From an uncultured Afifella sp. (GTDB lineage Bacteria > Pseudomonadota > Alphaproteobacteria > Rhizobiales > Afifellaceae), in the NCBI GenBank assembly GCA_947259045.1, contig CAMYKZ010000010.1:1-64000 (forward strand): a DNA stretch of 64,000 nt. The letters are read 5' to 3'. The notes beneath the pieces were generated by a model. It did no database searches. It had not been told where the DNA came from and saw nothing but the letters and a program-made list of their open reading frames with translations. The position numbers and the translations under genes were made by a program. Every line of letters begins with the position of its first letter. Within the stretch, counting starts at the first letter, position 1. This document shows, in pieces, positions 19,122-28,427 of this stretch.

Positions 19122-20411
19122 ATGTACGGCAAATCTGAAGACCCGACCATACCGGAAGACATTGAGGCAGTTCTCGGCGCTGCTGGCGGCAATTCCGGTT
19201 TGTGGCGGCACGGAAAATGGCCGATTCTGCTGGTCCTGGCCATCACGGCCGGCGCGGTCGGCTATTACCTGTTCGGTTTCGATGGCTCGACCGGCAACGT
19301 TCAGTATCGCACGGACACTGCACGTCTCGGCGATATCACTGTCATCGTCACCGCTACGGGAACGGTGGAGCCGACAAACCAGGTCGATATTTCAAGCGAA
19401 CTGTCGGGCATCATCCGTTCTGTCTCCGTCGATTTCAATTCCACGGTCAAGGTCGGCCAGGTTTTGGCTGAGTTGGATACGGACAAGCTGAAAGCTACGG
19501 TTGAAAGTTCCCGTGCCCGTGTGGATGCCGCCAAGGCCCGTCTTCTGGAGGCGGAAGCCACGGTGGTGGAGAAAGAGCGTGAACTGACCCGCAAGAAGGC
19601 TCTCGCCGACCGACAGATCGGTTCGCTGCAGGACCTGGACATCGCAAAGGCCGGTTATGACCGGGCCGTGGCTTCGCGGGCGAGCGCCAGGGCCGATATC
19701 AAATCGGCCGAGGCGGACCTGAAGCTCAACGAGACCAATCTGGAGAAAACCTGCATCTGCTCGCCGATCAACGGCGTCGTCTTGAGCCGCAACGTCGATC
19801 CGGGCCAGGTGGTCGCCTCGTCGCTGCAGGCTCCGGTTCTGTTCGCGATTGCCGAAGATCTCGGCAAGATGGATATCCAGGTCGATGTCGACGAGGCCGA
19901 TGTCGGCAAGGTCCGCGAGGGCCAAGCCGCGACATTCACCGTCGACGCCCACCCCGACCGCAAGTTTCATGCTGTCATCAGCCAGCTTCGTTTTGGATCG
20001 GAGATCGTCCAGGGTGTCGTTACCTACAAGGCGGTGCTGACGACTGACAATTCGGAACTGCTGCTGAGGCCCGGTATGACTGCAACTGCCGAGATTGTGG
20101 TGCATGAGGAGAAAGAGGTCCTTTCGGTTTCCAACGAAGCGCTGCGGTTTTCGCCGCCCTCGCCGGAAGAGAACTCCGGCAACCAGAGCTTTCTGAAACG
20201 ACTGCTTCCGGGCATGCCGCAGTTCCGGCCTGCCAGCAGGCCGGAGATCACGGGTTCGGCCCGGGATCTCTGGGTGCTGGGAGACGACGGCGTTGCCGTT
20301 CCAGTCCGGGTGATCATCGGGGCGACCGACGGCCGGCGGACGCAGATCGTCGAGGGTCCGTTGGAAGTCGGCCAAAAAATCGCAGTCGACGCAGTCACTT
20401 CGGCGAAATGA
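19122..20411 (+). CDS. macA: MacA-like periplasmic adaptor (membrane fusion protein)
   Basis: 429 residues. A cytoplasmic N-terminus of ~25 residues precedes one membrane helix (WPILLVLAITAGAVGYYLFG). The periplasmic part has the split lipoyl domain (DITVIVTATGTVEPTNQVDISSEL and SPINGVVLSRNVDPGQVVAS) around a coiled-coil hairpin (~110-200, rich in A/E/K/R heptads), then beta-barrel and membrane-proximal domains. In MacAB systems the adaptor links the inner-membrane ABC transporter to an outer-membrane TolC channel. It overlaps macB-ATPase by ATGA. The C-terminal insert SPPSPEENSGNQSFLKRLLP is unusual. Confidence 0.92.
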   Translation: MYGKSEDPTIPEDIEAVLGAAGGNSGLWRHGKWPILLVLAITAGAVGYYLFGFDGSTGNVQYRTDTARLGDITVIVTATGTVEPTNQVDISSELSGIIRSVSVDFNSTVKVGQVLAELDTDKLKATVESSRARVDAAKARLLEAEATVVEKERELTRKKALADRQIGSLQDLDIAKAGYDRAVASRASARADIKSAEADLKLNETNLEKTCICSPINGVVLSRNVDPGQVVASSLQAPVLFAIAEDLGKMDIQVDVDEADVGKVREGQAATFTVDAHPDRKFHAVISQLRFGSEIVQGVVTYKAVLTTDNSELLLRPGMTATAEIVVHEEKEVLSVSNEALRFSPPSPEENSGNQSFLKRLLPGMPQFRPASRPEITGSARDLWVLGDDGVAVPVRVIIGATDGRRTQIVEGPLEVGQKIAVDAVTSAK

Positions 20412-21133
20412 CGATGTCGCGTGAGAATGGACAATCCGCGGCACTGATCGAACTGCATGCCGTCTCCAAGATCTACGGGTCCGGCATGGCCGAAGTGCGC
20501 GCGCTCGACGCTGTCGGCCTGCGCATCGACACGGGCGAATTCGTCGCCATCATGGGGCCGTCAGGTTCGGGAAAATCGACAGCCATGAACATGATCGGCT
20601 GCCTCGATACGCCGAGCAGCGGGCACTATCTGTTCAAGGGCGTGGATGTCGGCGCGCTCTCGCGCAACCAGCGCGCCTTGCTCAGGCGACATTTTCTCGG
20701 TTTCGTCTTCCAGGGCTTCAATCTGCTCGCCCGTACTTCGGCGGCGGAGAATGTCGAACTGCCACTGATCTATCGCGGTATGGCGCCGGCCCCGCGGCGC
20801 AGGCAGGCGATGCAGGCGCTTGCCCATGTCGGTCTGGCCGGGCGCGAGCATCATTCTCCGGGCGAGCTTTCCGGCGGCCAGCAGCAGCGGGTCGCCATAG
20901 CCCGGGCCATCGTCACCCAGCCGGCGGTTCTTCTGGCGGACGAGCCGACCGGCAATCTCGACACCAGGACGAGCCTTGAGATCATGGACCTGCTTGTGCG
21001 GCTGAACGACGAAGCGGGCATCACCGTCATCATCGTTACCCACGAGGCCGAGATGGCGGCCTATGCGCACAGGGTTATCCATTTCGTCGATGGCCGGATC
21101 GACAGCGATGCGCTGAACAGGGATGCCGCCTGA
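20408..21133 (+). CDS. MacB-type ABC transporter ATP-binding protein
   Basis: 241 residues. It has Walker A GPSGSGKSTAMN, the LolD/MacB-type Q-loop FVFQGFNLLARTSAAENVELPLIYRG, signature SGGQQQRVAIARAIV, Walker B LLADEPTGNLDTRT and the H-loop VTHEAEMAAYAHR. Unlike E. coli MacB, ATPase and permease are separate genes here, overlapping by one base (TGATG), so they are translationally coupled. Expected to work with the adjacent adaptor and permease in export. Confidence 0.95.
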   Translation: MTMSRENGQSAALIELHAVSKIYGSGMAEVRALDAVGLRIDTGEFVAIMGPSGSGKSTAMNMIGCLDTPSSGHYLFKGVDVGALSRNQRALLRRHFLGFVFQGFNLLARTSAAENVELPLIYRGMAPAPRRRQAMQALAHVGLAGREHHSPGELSGGQQQRVAIARAIVTQPAVLLADEPTGNLDTRTSLEIMDLLVRLNDEAGITVIIVTHEAEMAAYAHRVIHFVDGRIDSDALNRDAA

Positions 21134-22338
21134 TGTTCCTTGAAACCTTCAAGCTGGCGATACAGGCGATAGCTCGCAACGCGATGCGCTCATTTCTGAC
21201 CGTGCTCGGCATTGTGATTGGCGTTGGTGCGGTGATTGCCATGGTGACAATCGGCAACGGCACGACTGCCAAGGTGGCGGCCGACATGGCCAAGCTCGGC
21301 AGCAATCTCCTTTTCGTGCGACCGGGCCAGTTCGGGCCGGGTCGCTCCAGCGCGGAGGCCAGAAGCTTCAACGCCCGCGACATCGAGGCGCTGAAGCTCC
21401 AGCTGCACGGTGCAAGCGCAGTGGCGCCGGTGGCGCAGACGGCGGTCACGGCGATATATGGCACAGAAAGCCGCAGTACGTCCGCCGTCGGGACCGACAA
21501 TGATTTCTTCGTCTCCCGCGATTGGCAGCTGACAGAGGGCCGGCGGTTTCTCGATGGCGAGATCCGCAGCGGAAGGGCCGTCTGCGTCATCGGTGAGACA
21601 ATCCGTGACGAGCTGTTTGGAAGTGCCGATTTTCTCGGCCAGCGGATCCGCGTCAACAAGGTCTCCTGCGAGGTGATCGGCCTGCTTGAAGTGAAGGGCG
21701 AATCCGGTTTCGGCACCGATCAGGACGATACTGTCCTGATGCCGATGAGGACGTTCCAGCGCCGCATTGCCGGCAATCCCAATATCACGACGATTTATAT
21801 TTCGGCGCGCGACGGCGTGCAGACGGAGAAGGTGCAGGGCGACATAGAGCGGCTGTTGCGCGAGCGCCGCAATATCGCGGCCGACGAGGAGGACGATTTC
21901 AGCGTCCGCGACATGAAGCAAATCATCCAGACCCAGACGGCGACGACGACGGTGCTGACCGGGTTGCTTGGCGCCGTGGCCGGCGTCAGCCTGCTGGTCG
22001 GTGGCATCGGCATTATGAATATCATGCTTGTGTCGGTGACCGAGCGGACCCGCGAGATCGGGATCCGGCTGGCTATCGGTGCTCAGGAGTCCCAGGTGCT
22101 TCTGCAGTTTCTTGTAGAGGCGGTCGTTCTTTCGCTGTTCGGCGGCGTGGTCGGCATCCTGGTTGGACTCGGCCTTGCCGCGCTCGCCTCCAGCGCTATG
22201 ACAATACCATTCGTCCTCAATCCGGCGATCGTCGTGATCGCATTCGGATTCTCTGCCGCAGTCGGCGTTATCTTTGGCTTTTTCCCGGCCCGCCGTGCCG
22301 CCCGAATGAACCCGATCGAAGCTCTGAGGCACGAATAG
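21133..22338 (+). CDS. MacB-type ABC transporter permease (FtsX domain)
   Basis: 401 residues. One N-terminal helix (AMRSFLTVLGIVIGVGAVIAMV) is followed by a large periplasmic MacB domain (~50-270), and then three helices of the FtsX domain (LLGAVAGVSLLVGGIGIMNIMLVSVTERTREIGIR.., LFGGVVGILVGLGLAALASS.., PAIVVIAFGFSAAVGVIFGFFPARRAARMNPIEALR). This is the standard layout of the type VII, mechanotransmission family of ABC transporters. The exported substrate (a peptide, lipid or antibiotic) is unknown; no TolC gene is in the window. Confidence 0.93.
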   Translation: MFLETFKLAIQAIARNAMRSFLTVLGIVIGVGAVIAMVTIGNGTTAKVAADMAKLGSNLLFVRPGQFGPGRSSAEARSFNARDIEALKLQLHGASAVAPVAQTAVTAIYGTESRSTSAVGTDNDFFVSRDWQLTEGRRFLDGEIRSGRAVCVIGETIRDELFGSADFLGQRIRVNKVSCEVIGLLEVKGESGFGTDQDDTVLMPMRTFQRRIAGNPNITTIYISARDGVQTEKVQGDIERLLRERRNIAADEEDDFSVRDMKQIIQTQTATTTVLTGLLGAVAGVSLLVGGIGIMNIMLVSVTERTREIGIRLAIGAQESQVLLQFLVEAVVLSLFGGVVGILVGLGLAALASSAMTIPFVLNPAIVVIAFGFSAAVGVIFGFFPARRAARMNPIEALRHE

Positions 22339-22435: not shown

Positions 22436-22879
22436 CTACGGCCGCACATAGGCGTAACCATCTTCCTGCAGTTCGATCAGCCGGACGACGCCGGATGTCA
22501 CCATGCCGGCTTCCGACATGATCGGAATTTCCTTGCCTGCCTTTTCGCTCATCTTGCGGTGGGTGTTGCCGCAGGCGGAAAATGTCAGGTTTTCCATTTC
22601 CAGCGACATGGTTTCAACCCGTTTTTCGACAGGGCTCTTGCCGGGCACGAACATGTTCAGGCCCGGGCCGTAGGCAACGAGTTCGATCATAACCTTGTCG
22701 CCCTTGGATTCGTAATATTCGGTGACGTTCTGGGCATTGTTGAGGGCCATGTTCATGACGGCCTTGTCGTTCTGATCAACATGAATTGCGACTTTGTGCG
22801 TCATGCCTTCGGCAAATGCTGCCGTTGCGAGCATCAGGCCGAACAGGCCCGACATTGTGAGAACCATCAGTCGTTTCAT
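22436..22879 (-). CDS. Periplasmic DsrE-family protein
   Basis: 147 residues. A signal peptide (MKRLMVLTMSGLFGLMLATAAFA) is followed by a DsrE-like Rossmann fold: HKVAIHVDQNDKAVMNMALNNAQNVTEYYESKGDKVMIELVAYGPGLNMF, then the single cysteine (C103) in LTFSACGNTHRKMSEKAG. Cytoplasmic DsrE proteins carry sulfur on a cysteine; exported ones of this group are often found near sulfur-compound genes, but their role is not settled. It is the last gene of the operon with the binding protein (29-bp gap) and the LuxR-type receptor. Confidence 0.85.
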   Translation of the reverse strand: MKRLMVLTMSGLFGLMLATAAFAEGMTHKVAIHVDQNDKAVMNMALNNAQNVTEYYESKGDKVMIELVAYGPGLNMFVPGKSPVEKRVETMSLEMENLTFSACGNTHRKMSEKAGKEIPIMSEAGMVTSGVVRLIELQEDGYAYVRP

Positions 22880-22908: not shown

Positions 22909-23877
22909 CTATTTTTTTGCCGCAATGGGCTTCAGTTTCAATTCTTCATCCGTCGCCGGAAGAAAACCGTATCGGGCATAAATGCCTTGCGCATCTTTGG
23001 TGCCCAGATAGGCAAGATACCGCATCGCATTGTAGGGATTTCGCCCGGACTGCAAAGCGCCGATTGCATAGCCGACCCTGTCCTGCTGGTTCAGCGGCGC
23101 AGCGATCGCGACCCCGTCGATCTTGCGGCCTTCGGCCTTGGCGTGCACCACTTCCGTCACCCAGACGATACCGACGTCAGCCTCGCCGTTTTCGATGCGG
23201 TAGGGCGTTTCGCGGTGGTGCCGCTCGGTGAACCAGGTCTTGCCGTCAACCGCCCAGCAACCCTTGCATTCCGCGCCGCCGGTGACCTTGGCGTGCAGGC
23301 CGAGATCCTTCAGCATCTGCGAGCCGTAAAACCTGAAGATACCCTCCGTCAGCGGATTGGGATGGGATTGCACAAGGTCGTCGCGGCCGAGATCCTCCGC
23401 GCCCTTGATGGCTTTCGGATTGCCTGCTGCGATCATCAGTTCCAGCTTGTTATGCGTGTAGATCATGTAATCGGACATCATCCCCTTGGCCTTCAGCGTT
23501 TTCAGATGCCCCAGATTGACGCTGGCAAAAAGGTCCGGGTTCTGCGCCGTCTTCTGATCGTTGATTTCACCCTGTTGCAGGATCTGCCCCTTGAGGATCT
23601 GGCCCGGCGGAATCGTTTCGACGTAAATCGTTGCGATGTCCGGGTTCTTTGACTGGAAATCACGGATCAACTCTTCCATCACCATGAACTGGTTGCCGGC
23701 CAGATACATCACCAGATCGCCGGAGTAACTGTCGCCGATCTTGCCCTTGTCGATCGAGCCGTCGGCGTGGAAAGTCCGGTAATCGTCATTGTGACCGGCG
23801 TCCTCAGCGGACCGTGCCGGTGCAATCAGAACCAGGCCGGCAATCGCAAGACCAAGTGCAGTTCGGTATGTCTTCAT
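22909..23877 (-). CDS. Periplasmic substrate-binding protein without an adjacent transporter
   Basis: 322 residues with signal peptide (ALGLAIAGLVLIAPARSA). The fold looks like the molybdate/sulfate-type solute-binding family: GDLVMYLAGNQFMVMEELIRDFQSKNPDI, then DLFASVNLGHLKTLKAKG and GEADVGIVWVTEVVHAKAEG. A CKGCW motif at 204-208 could form a disulfide, a metal site or a sulfur-compound site. No permease or ATPase gene is adjacent, so it may present a ligand to another protein. Preceded by RBS AGGGGAAA. A 13-bp tandem repeat lies just upstream. Confidence 0.75.
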   Translation of the reverse strand: MKTYRTALGLAIAGLVLIAPARSAEDAGHNDDYRTFHADGSIDKGKIGDSYSGDLVMYLAGNQFMVMEELIRDFQSKNPDIATIYVETIPPGQILKGQILQQGEINDQKTAQNPDLFASVNLGHLKTLKAKGMMSDYMIYTHNKLELMIAAGNPKAIKGAEDLGRDDLVQSHPNPLTEGIFRFYGSQMLKDLGLHAKVTGGAECKGCWAVDGKTWFTERHHRETPYRIENGEADVGIVWVTEVVHAKAEGRKIDGVAIAAPLNQQDRVGYAIGALQSGRNPYNAMRYLAYLGTKDAQGIYARYGFLPATDEELKLKPIAAKK

Positions 23878-23888
23878 GGCATTTCCCC

Positions 23889-23914
23889 TGTGTGATTATG
23901 ATGTGTGATTATGA
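23889..23914 (-). promoter_or_regulatory. Exact tandem 13-bp repeat upstream of the binding-protein gene
   Basis: The 13-mer tgtgtgattatga occurs twice in a row (23889-23901 and 23902-23914), ending 11 bp before the start codon of the binding protein. It could be an operator for the LuxR-type regulator encoded just upstream, or part of a leader. It is also short enough to be chance slippage. Confidence 0.4.
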
Positions 23915-23970
23915 GATGTTCACGACAGGATGATCCCACGATATAGGGTCAATTGAACCGCGGCAGAGCC

Positions 23971-25347
23971 CTAGTTTGCGGCAGTTTGTCCTAGGGATAG
24001 CCCTTGGTCGAAGCCCAGACGTGTCGCAAGCTGGACAAGATGGGGTGTCGTGCCGGCGGCGGTTTTCTGCAGCAGATTCGCGCGATGATATTCGACTGTC
24101 TTGGGGCTGATATGGAGCTGTTCGGCAATATTCTTGGTCTGATGGCCGTTGCAGATCAGCGCGAGAACCTCGCGTTCCCGCCGGGTGAGCGTTTCAAAGC
24201 GCTGCTGGGCCTGGTTCATTTCCGGATCCGGCTCCTCCGGCTGGAGGTCAGGTGTGTCGGTCCGCTGCGGGCCGGACCTGCGTCGTAACAGGGTAATCGC
24301 GGTGAGCAATGTCAGGCCGGCGATCGCCGCGGCCAGCGCGAGGATGGCAATCGAGCCGGGCGCAAGCGGTCCGGCGGCTTGCTGTTTGAGGCTATTGCGG
24401 TAAGCGCCGACAACGGCGCGGACGCTGTCATAGGCAAGCGGCGCCGACCAGATGTCGCGCAGACCGTGACGCTCCATAATCTCCGGCTGCTGCGTCCGCA
24501 AAAGCGAAAGCAGCACGGTCTCCCGCAAGCCCTTTTCGATCCCGGGCAGCGCCGCAAACGGCCATTCGGGGTAGAGCCGGCTGCTGATCTGGTGCGGATA
24601 GCCCAATTGCATGTTGGCATTCAGGACACGGATATCCGCCATATCGAGCCGGCCTTCGGCTGCCAGTAGCTCCAGCAATCCGCTGCGGACGATGCCGGCG
24701 TCGACTTCGCCATCGAGCGTGGCAAAGATGATGGCATCCTGGGGGAAACCCATAAAACGGATGGAGCCGCCATCGGAAAAGACATCGATCCCCTGCGCCT
24801 GGAATTCCGACCAGGCCATCTGAAAGCCGCCAAAGGCATCGGGGCTGACGGCGGCGATCTTGCGGTCCTTGAGGTCGTCCAGCGCCCGGATGCCGCTGTC
24901 ATGTCGCACAAGGATGACGGTTCCATACTGCAGAAGACCAGTGCCGCCATTGCTGCTGCCGGATTGCAGCGCCGCCCTCTCGCGGGTTGAAAGAGCACTG
25001 AGGCCGAAACGTTCCGCCAATGTCACATAATGACCGGGATTGGTGATGACGAAGTCGACAGTCTTGGTTTCGATCTGCTGCGGCGTTGAAACAAGGGTCA
25101 GGGGTACAAGTTCGAACTGCCAGCCGGCAACCGATGCGCTCAGATAATCGGCCAGCGGCTGCCAGCGCGCCAGAGCGGCATCGACGCCGCGATAGGCAAG
25201 AACGCCGATCCGGGCCCGGCGGATTTCCGCATCGCTTCCGGGCGTTTCCTCCGGGCCGGTCGCTGGCGTCTGGGCGCGCGCCGCAATTGCGCCCGAGACG
25301 ATCATCAAGCTCAGCCAGACTGCCATCCAGATGCGGCGCAGAACCAT
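23971..25347 (-). CDS. Membrane one-component regulator: PhnD-like periplasmic domain fused to LuxR-type HTH
   Basis: 458 residues. Order: N-terminal signal-anchor (8-24), periplasmic binding domain of the PhnD/SsuA/TtrS type (~45-315: RIGVLAYRGVDAALARWQPLADYLS, VDFVITNPGHYVTL, IAAVSPDAFGGFQMAWSEF), one membrane helix (~331-354), then a cytoplasmic GerE/LuxR helix-turn-helix (~386-443: LTRREREVLALICNGHQTKNIAEQLHISPKTVEYHRANLL). There is no histidine kinase or receiver domain. PhnD-like domains are the sensory part of kinases such as TtrS (tetrathionate); here the sensor seems joined straight to the DNA-binding domain, which would act from the membrane. It is the first gene of a run with the binding protein and DsrE. 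Ligand unknown. Confidence 0.88.
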   Translation of the reverse strand: MVLRRIWMAVWLSLMIVSGAIAARAQTPATGPEETPGSDAEIRRARIGVLAYRGVDAALARWQPLADYLSASVAGWQFELVPLTLVSTPQQIETKTVDFVITNPGHYVTLAERFGLSALSTRERAALQSGSSNGGTGLLQYGTVILVRHDSGIRALDDLKDRKIAAVSPDAFGGFQMAWSEFQAQGIDVFSDGGSIRFMGFPQDAIIFATLDGEVDAGIVRSGLLELLAAEGRLDMADIRVLNANMQLGYPHQISSRLYPEWPFAALPGIEKGLRETVLLSLLRTQQPEIMERHGLRDIWSAPLAYDSVRAVVGAYRNSLKQQAAGPLAPGSIAILALAAAIAGLTLLTAITLLRRRSGPQRTDTPDLQPEEPDPEMNQAQQRFETLTRREREVLALICNGHQTKNIAEQLHISPKTVEYHRANLLQKTAAGTTPHLVQLATRLGFDQGLSLGQTAAN

Positions 25348-27665: not shown

Positions 27666-28427
27666 ATGGTTGCCATACCAATCTGGAAAGGTTCGAACGT
27701 GGATTTTAGTTTCGACGCAGCACTGTTTGAATCGCTTGTCTCGCCGGGCGCCTTTCTCGGCCATGCCGCCTATGCGCTGCTGGTTCTCTCCATATTGATG
27801 CGCTCGATCGTCTGGCTGCGCTTGATCGCTCTCGCCTCCGGGGTGACCCAGATCGCCTATGACGCACTCATCCTGCAGGACCCCGTCAGCGTCGGCTGGG
27901 ATGCCTTGTTCGTGCTGGCGAACGCCTACCAGATGGTGATGCTGGCCTGGCAGGCGCGCCGCGTCCGTTTCAATGACGAGGAATATACCTTCTGCCAGAA
28001 TGCCCTGCCGCTTGTGCCGCCGCTGCTGTCGCGGCAATTCATCAATATCGGCGCCTGGCAGGATCTGCCGGAGGGAACCGAACTGACCGGACAGGGCCAG
28101 CCGGTGGACAAACTGACCTATCTGTCATCCGGAACGGTCGATGTTCTCGTGCATCAGCATCACATTGCGGTCTGCGGGATCGGTGATTTCATCGGTGAAC
28201 TGGGCATCCTGTCCGGCAAACCGGCAACGGCGACAACGGTGACGTCGGCGCCGGTGCGGGCGCTGGTATTTGAACGCGACAGACTGCACAAACACCTGCT
28301 TCGGCAGCCGGACCTGAAACTGGCGCTGCAGGCGGCATTCAAGGAAAACCTGCGCAGCAAGCTGACGCTGGCCAACGAGCGGACGCTGGCGGGCCTCAGG
28401 CCTGCGGAGACGCCGGCGGCGGAATAA
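27666..28427 (+). CDS. Membrane protein with cyclic-nucleotide-binding domain (Popeye-like)
   Basis: 253 residues. About three hydrophobic helices occupy residues ~28-95 (HAAYALLVLSILMRSIVWLRLIALASGVTQIAYDALI.., ALFVLANAYQMVMLAWQAR). They are followed by a cytoplasmic cNMP-binding-like beta barrel (~125-235: EGTELTGQGQPVDKLTYLSSGTVDVLVHQHHIAVCGIGDFIGELGILSGKPATATTV). The FIGELGILSG segment matches the phosphate-binding cassette region, but the usual RxA arginine is absent (PATATTV), as in some Popeye proteins. Layout and length resemble bacterial Popeye-domain proteins. Ligand and role unknown. Confidence 0.75.
   Translation: MVAIPIWKGSNVDFSFDAALFESLVSPGAFLGHAAYALLVLSILMRSIVWLRLIALASGVTQIAYDALILQDPVSVGWDALFVLANAYQMVMLAWQARRVRFNDEEYTFCQNALPLVPPLLSRQFINIGAWQDLPEGTELTGQGQPVDKLTYLSSGTVDVLVHQHHIAVCGIGDFIGELGILSGKPATATTVTSAPVRALVFERDRLHKHLLRQPDLKLALQAAFKENLRSKLTLANERTLAGLRPAETPAAE

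Follow-up and report, generated by a model that had tools for sequence, protein, structure and literature searches.

A PhnD/TtrS-type sensor joined through a membrane helix to a LuxR-type DNA-binding domain: a probable one-component regulator of Alphaproteobacteria

The window analyzed here, a stretch of 64,000 nucleotides from an uncultured Afifella species, encodes a protein in which a PhnD-type sensor, a membrane helix, and a LuxR-type helix-turn-helix (HTH) domain form a single chain. We consider it likely that this protein is a membrane-tethered one-component regulator, which has kept the sensor, operator geometry, and target of a TtrSR-type system and has lost the phosphorelay; in this reading a sulfur oxyanion is the presumed ligand, the HTH would bind a palindrome, and the bound protein would activate its target. 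The domain layout had been recognized in an earlier note on this DNA; the single-clade origin of the fusion and a conserved candidate operator are additions to what that note claimed.

The regulator protein

The gene is a single open reading frame of 458 codons with zero internal stops (Table 1). Pfam places PF12974 on residues 47–290 (126.4 bits; gathering cut-off 27) and GerE (PF00196) on residues 386–440 (64 bits; cut-off 23.5). The only other match above cut-off in the 458 residues is Sigma70_r4_2, which overlaps GerE, and no match was found to HisKA, HATPase_c, HAMP, or Response_reg. A hydrophobic segment at residues 333–351 (Kyte–Doolittle value 2.52) is immediately followed by four Arg/Lys residues. 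The AlphaFold model built with 37 homologues (mean pLDDT 82.7; 65.7 for an earlier model built with six sequences) consists of the sensor (43–324), a helix (330–353), a flexible or disordered linker (approximately 354–374), and the HTH (375–444). Pfam, hydropathy, and the structure model therefore agree with the earlier note on a PhnD sensor, a membrane helix, and a GerE domain in a chain that lacks kinase, HAMP, and receiver parts. That note had also considered that the frame might prove to be two genes meeting near residue 360; since PF12974, a strong hydrophobic segment, and GerE follow one another in 37 of 37 homologues, the long frame is one gene.

Table 1. Features of the regulator locus, with positions numbered from the first base of the window
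Feature	Position	Strand	Evidence
PhnD/TtrS-type sensor–membrane helix–LuxR HTH regulator, 458 aa	23971..25347	-	Single ORF; PF12974 and GerE; 37 homologues alike
N-terminal hydrophobic segment, predicted export signal, residues ~1–24	25276..25347	-	Model helix 2–19; sequence
Periplasmic PhnD-type sensor domain, residues 43–324	24376..25221	-	PF12974; model; Foldseek/VIA matches
Membrane helix, residues 330–353, then RRR	24289..24360	-	Hydropathy; model helix
LuxR/GerE DNA-binding domain, residues 375–444	24016..24225	-	PF00196; model; PDB relatives
Main operator candidate, minus-strand ACCAAGGG-CTAT-CCCTAGGA, overlapping the 3′-end of the regulator gene	23989..24008	.	Motif finding; held-out matrix; genome scan
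Second, weaker operator-like site, 32 bp from the main one	23957..23976	.	Second-best in window with held-out matrix
Weak promoter-like hexamers before the binding-protein gene	23895..23922	-	Consensus scan alone, 9/12 matches
Periplasmic binding protein (PF13531, distantly of molybdate/sulfate type), presumed target	22909..23877	-	Domain match; orthologues at fusion and kinase loci
Presumed target: secreted DsrE-like protein (conserved Cys), gene 29 bp past that of the binding protein	22436..22879	-	PF02635, E 2.5e-4; PDB relative MTH1491

The joining of a TtrS-type sensor to a FixJ/TtrR-type HTH, likewise proposed in the note, is borne out by NCBIfam, in which residues 45–314 align to positions 7–261 of the TtrS model (E 7.5e-52) and the C-terminus groups with the regulators FixJ, MctR, and TtrR. 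Against the full TtrS kinase model (NF040750) the protein scores 176.5 bits over positions 7–261 of 555, a match that ends before the kinase half and falls far below the curated cut-off of 750. The HTH relatives in the PDB are FixJ, EsrB, and SsrB. Foldseek and VIA-align reveal PtxB, ArrX, PhnD, and AioX as structural neighbors of the sensor (Z 20–25; 24 to PtxB and 22 to PhnD), and PtxB was also recovered by sequence using a profile of six sensors. Solved complexes of these four proteins contain phosphite, arsenate, sulfate, phosphonate, or arsenite. The residues T102, N103, D204, R221, and E226 are among those invariant across six fusions and six TtrS-type kinases. By score and fold the protein belongs to the PF12974 family. 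It is not a LuxR/FixJ response regulator, as residues 1–374 comprise the signal, sensor, transmembrane segment, and linker and include no receiver. A transmembrane transcription regulator has been defined as a one-component protein with a predicted transmembrane region and a predicted DNA-binding domain (PMC10269533), and this describes the present chain, from which the two-component core domains are absent.

Distribution and phylogeny

Homologues were collected by searching 84,980 species genomes with a sensor profile and retaining the best 80 loci, to which loci gathered earlier were added. The open reading frames in this collection comprise 43 fusions, 51 kinases, and 3 that are cut or unclear; deduplication leaves at least 37 fusions, the window included, and 50 TtrS-type kinases. 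The architecture search across genomes suggested by the earlier note therefore yields 37 distinct loci which keep the layout as one frame. PF12974 and GerE are present in all 37 fusions, as is a hydrophobic segment between sensor and HTH, and a receiver in none. Net charge is higher after this segment than before it in 27 of the 37 (mean +2.3 versus +0.6), as is expected if the HTH lies inside the cell. Forty-six residues, spread over sensor and HTH, are invariant across the 37 intact frames. Homologues are not independent samples; near relatives were thinned for the operator score test described below and retained in the tallies.

The hosts of the fusion include Hyphomicrobiales and related records (among them Thermopetrobacter, Methyloligella, and Anderseniella) and, within the Rhodobacterales, Thioclava, Mameliella, Marimonas, Marivita, Salipiger, Antarctobacter, and Rhodosalinus. 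The genome of the window is an assembly of 275 contigs (96% complete, 5% contamination), and the existence of homologues in named isolates makes an assembly artefact implausible. Of the 397 genomes examined from the order to which the window belongs, 34 encode the sensor: six as the fusion and the others mostly in long frames of kinase size. One contig stretch (L104/L105) occurs in both a Flavobacteriia-labeled MAG (AQU-04, marked unverified) and a Roseobacter MAG (AQU-03), which is a binning or labeling error in the public record.

In a sensor tree of 87 sequences the fusions form one side of a branch opposite the 50 kinases (SH-aLRT 99; root not fixed), and in the HTH tree they form one clade (support 97). 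This agreement of the two trees makes a single origin likely; descent of the fusion HTH from TtrR-type regulators was not recovered in the HTH tree, which has 67 columns. Most of the 50 kinases adjoin a response regulator gene, in agreement with the note's view that sensor and output are split in the known systems; no TtrS-like kinase was found elsewhere in the genome of the window. At about even chances, one event in an ancestral alphaproteobacterium may have deprived a TtrSR-like relay of its kinase and receiver, with sensor, operator geometry, and target operon kept, such that relay and relay-free circuits now coexist.

Gene neighborhood and sulfur context

The earlier note had asked whether the regulator is always accompanied by the binding-protein and DsrE genes. 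Both neighboring genes are real, the DsrE-like one scoring 21.6 bits with PF02635, just below the Pfam cut-off of 22.7; they are not constant partners, since the binding-protein gene (PF13531) is downstream in only 7 of the 37 fusion loci, six besides the window having the orthologue directly downstream, whereas a secreted DsrE-like gene is downstream on the same strand in 29. Three loci, including the window, have both. Of the eight fusion loci that lack dsrE, four have the binding protein, two end within 450 bases, and two (L098 and L115) have neither, so that 33 of the 35 assessable loci have one gene or the other directly downstream. The DsrE-like proteins share a Cys in one short stretch, which reads SACGNT in the window and HVCANT in others. 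One of the same two genes is near 28 of the 50 kinase loci, and binding-protein orthologues are near eight.

Sox genes lie within 12 of the 50 kinase loci (SoxA, SoxB, SoxY, and SoxZ were identified), and kinase relatives adjoin soxYZAB or a flavoprotein distantly similar to sulfide:quinone reductases (SQR). No sox gene lies within the fusion loci, and for this reason the link to sulfur rests on the kinase cousins, on DsrE, and on genome content. With regard to the last, 14 fusion genomes were tested, of which 13 have a SoxB above the cut-off and the remaining one is an 83% complete bin. SoxB is common in the window's order, being present in 128 of the 397 genomes, and occurs in five of the six members that carry the fusion, for which the binomial chance is approximately 0.015 (hand calculation, relatedness ignored).

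Several other observations concern the surroundings of these genes. In L102 (5885–9840) and other Marivita-type roseobacter loci, among them L103, L112, and L116, the regulator–dsrE pair lies between ftsZ and ftsA of the cell-division cluster, on the opposite strand, an odd site for an insertion and one seemingly kept in several species. Upstream of the kinase/regulator/dsrE set of L074 (11635–13651, minus strand) are a signal-bearing, distantly SQR-like flavoprotein and a diheme-type cytochrome, which resemble a flavocytochrome c pair. Within the window a MacAB-type efflux set (HlyD-like adaptor, ABC ATPase, and MacB-type permease; 19122–22338, plus strand) converges on the dsrE-like gene. 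The 253-residue protein encoded at 27666–28427 (plus strand) combines hydrophobic segments with a cyclic-nucleotide-binding domain. It also resembles the Popeye model PF04831 weakly (22 bits, under the cut-off) and is perhaps a bacterial Popeye-type protein.

A candidate operator

Motif finding from the last 75 bases of the regulator gene to the next start codon in 32 loci reveals the palindrome ACCTAGGG-N4-CCCTAGGT between regulator and target (log-likelihood 326 versus 53 for shuffled sequences). Across 20 dereplicated loci, best scores averaged 13.25 out of 16, compared with 9.15 ± 0.18 for Markov-shuffled sequences. Since the consensus was drawn from the same data, a held-out matrix was built from ten Rhodobacterales loci; applied to the 64-kb window, it ranked the main and second sites of Table 1 first (18.4) and second (12.5), respectively. 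The main site is the sole match in the 4.77-Mb genome at no more than one mismatch to CCTAGG-N6-CCTAGG, and in two Marimonas genomes a perfect CCTAGGG-N4-CCCTAGG is found solely at the fusion locus. No second strong site appeared in the genome-wide scans of these three genomes, and hence no wider regulon can be named. At many loci the palindrome runs into the end of the regulator gene and lies approximately 106–130 nt ahead of the target start codon. The deep branch of Thermopetrobacter type (L066, L070, L096, and L110) has no clear palindrome, with scores of 9–10 out of 16.

Ahead of dsrE or the binding-protein gene in the kinase loci, a motif of ATTAGGG-N4-CCCTAAT was obtained (log-likelihood 160 versus 29–36 shuffled; approximately 24 of 31 sequences), from which it follows that relay and relay-free versions share the core AGGG-N4-CCCT. 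In four loci with kinase and binding protein (L122, L128, L153, and L154) the site is nearer to CCCTAGGG-N4-CCCTAGG than to the dsrE-type ATTAGGG, as if the outer bases marked the type of target. Extra partial copies of the operator occur in several loci besides the window. Such partial sites had raised the possibility that CCTAGG half-sites form an 11-bp helical array; this was dropped, clear enrichment being seen only for the 12-bp spacing inside the palindrome.

Comparison with known systems

The closest described systems, TtrS–TtrR and ThsS–ThsR, share with the fusion a PhnD-type periplasmic sensor, a LuxR/FixJ-type HTH, and an inverted-repeat operator with a 4-bp spacer; they differ in that the fusion is one polypeptide with neither histidine kinase nor receiver, and they are linked to reductase genes rather than to dsrE-like or binding-protein genes. 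In Vibrio parahaemolyticus, TtrR activates its targets from a box, GTGG-N4-CCAC, that closely precedes the −35 box (PMC11293645). The half-sites therefore differ (GTGG versus AGGG), whereas the N4 geometry is alike. Nearer still are the pairs of TtrS-type kinase and response regulator collected here (L074, L075, L107, L125, and others), whose sensors are approximately 40% identical to that of the fusion and which have the neighbors and operator core noted above but retain the phosphorelay. No description of such pairs beside sox or dsrE genes was found in the open-licence literature.

The earlier note had likened the protein to ToxR and CadC and put it forward as a candidate for an undescribed design. 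The first comparison is apt insofar as all are membrane-tethered one-component factors with a periplasmic sensor and a single membrane helix. ToxR and CadC have an N-terminal cytoplasmic winged HTH (Trans_reg_C) and the sensor last, in the C-terminal periplasmic part. The fusion has the reverse domain order, that of a histidine kinase, with GerE instead of a winged HTH and an unrelated sensor; kinship with the ToxR/CadC family was thus rejected. AioX and ArrX have the same sensor fold (VIA Z 20–25) but are separate soluble binding proteins devoid of membrane helix and HTH. As to novelty, no description of a PhnD–LuxR regulator, of its operator, or of DsrE beside such a sensor was found in the open-licence literature. 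The kinase-free principle does have a precedent in Rsp of Neisseria gonorrhoeae, described from one species, in which the DNA-binding domain of PilR is attached to the PilS receptor and which represses pilA (PMC10269533). Like the fusion, Rsp unites a two-component sensor with its output and has no kinase; it differs in that the fusion has a periplasmic binding-protein sensor and GerE. Transmembrane one-component regulators are hence already known, and the PhnD sensor–GerE fusion is a variant of this kind.

Proposed mechanism and alternatives

In the mechanism we propose, the periplasmic N-terminal domain would bind a small oxyanion such as thiosulfate, tetrathionate, or a related compound; closure of the two-lobed sensor on its ligand would shift the arrangement of two protomers, and the single membrane helix would relay this change to the pair of cytoplasmic HTH domains. 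The HTH dimer would then bind the palindrome beside its own gene and activate the downstream binding-protein/dsrE operon. One protein may in this manner do the work of a TtrS–TtrR-like pair, with the same kind of operator and target and no phosphorelay. In TtrS the PhnD-like sensor detects tetrathionate and in ThsS thiosulfate (PMC5408782, PMC11293645). The ligand is probably a sulfur oxyanion of the thiosulfate/tetrathionate class, in view of the kinship with TtrS, the DsrE neighbor, the sox genes beside kinase cousins, and the SoxB of the fusion genomes. Activation, rather than repression, is a guess.

The same protein and operator could serve a ligand other than sulfur, namely phosphite, phosphonate, arsenate/arsenite, or a molybdate/tungstate-like anion, read together with the neighboring binding protein. 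The ligands of the closest relatives with solved structures are phosphite, methylphosphonate, arsenate, and arsenite, the binding protein is distantly ModA-like, and the breadth of oxyanions accommodated by the fold counts against a sulfur-only reading. We nevertheless regard a non-sulfur ligand as somewhat unlikely, given that TtrS is the closest sequence family, that DsrE-like proteins are the commonest neighbors, that kinase cousins lie beside soxYZAB or the SQR-like flavoprotein, and that nearly all of the fusion genomes tested encode SoxB. Repression of the downstream operon, relieved by the ligand, would suit the unfixed distance from operator to promoter and has a parallel in Rsp, a similar chimera; it appears unlikely in that the site precedes the target start codon in many loci by a distance which puts it upstream of the expected place of the promoter, and the cousin TtrR activates from just such a position. 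The long flexible linker after the membrane helix would also permit regulated proteolysis to free the HTH after ligand binding, so that it acts as a soluble factor. No protease family is prominent among the conserved neighbors, however, and the gene adjoins its putative operator, which suits a tethered factor; release from the membrane is thus quite improbable.

The palindrome itself might act in RNA, as a hairpin or as the transcription terminator of the regulator gene; in many loci it overlaps the stop codon of that gene, and in some copies the two halves could pair perfectly into an 8-bp stem closed by a 4-nt loop. In most loci, though, the halves pair incompletely (4–7 of 8) while each stays near the half-site consensus, no T-run follows the palindrome, a terminator scan finds nothing there, and the kinase cousins retain the AGGG-N4-CCCT core ahead of dsrE. 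Variation of the halves with no compensating change, together with the missing T-run, leaves a hairpin or terminator very improbable. That the gene is a functionless remnant of ttrSR, or two adjacent genes misread as one, is scarcely credible: beyond the missing kinase nothing points to it, and the intact frames come from independent assemblies, including named isolates, with their invariant residues distributed over both domains.

Significance

Reduced-sulfur sensing in Alphaproteobacteria has so far been attributed mainly to cytoplasmic sulfane-sulfur repressors (SoxR and sHdrR); the fusion family described here, as a tethered activator responding to a sulfur oxyanion, would be a direct periplasmic reader of external reduced sulfur. 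Two-component TtrSR and ThsSR are in current use as biosensors (PMC5408782), and the combination of a PhnD-type sensor, a single membrane helix, and a GerE output would offer a compact scaffold for oxyanion biosensors. With the same type of sensor, operator core, and target occurring both with and without a kinase, these loci would also provide a natural comparison by which the contribution of a phosphorelay could be judged.
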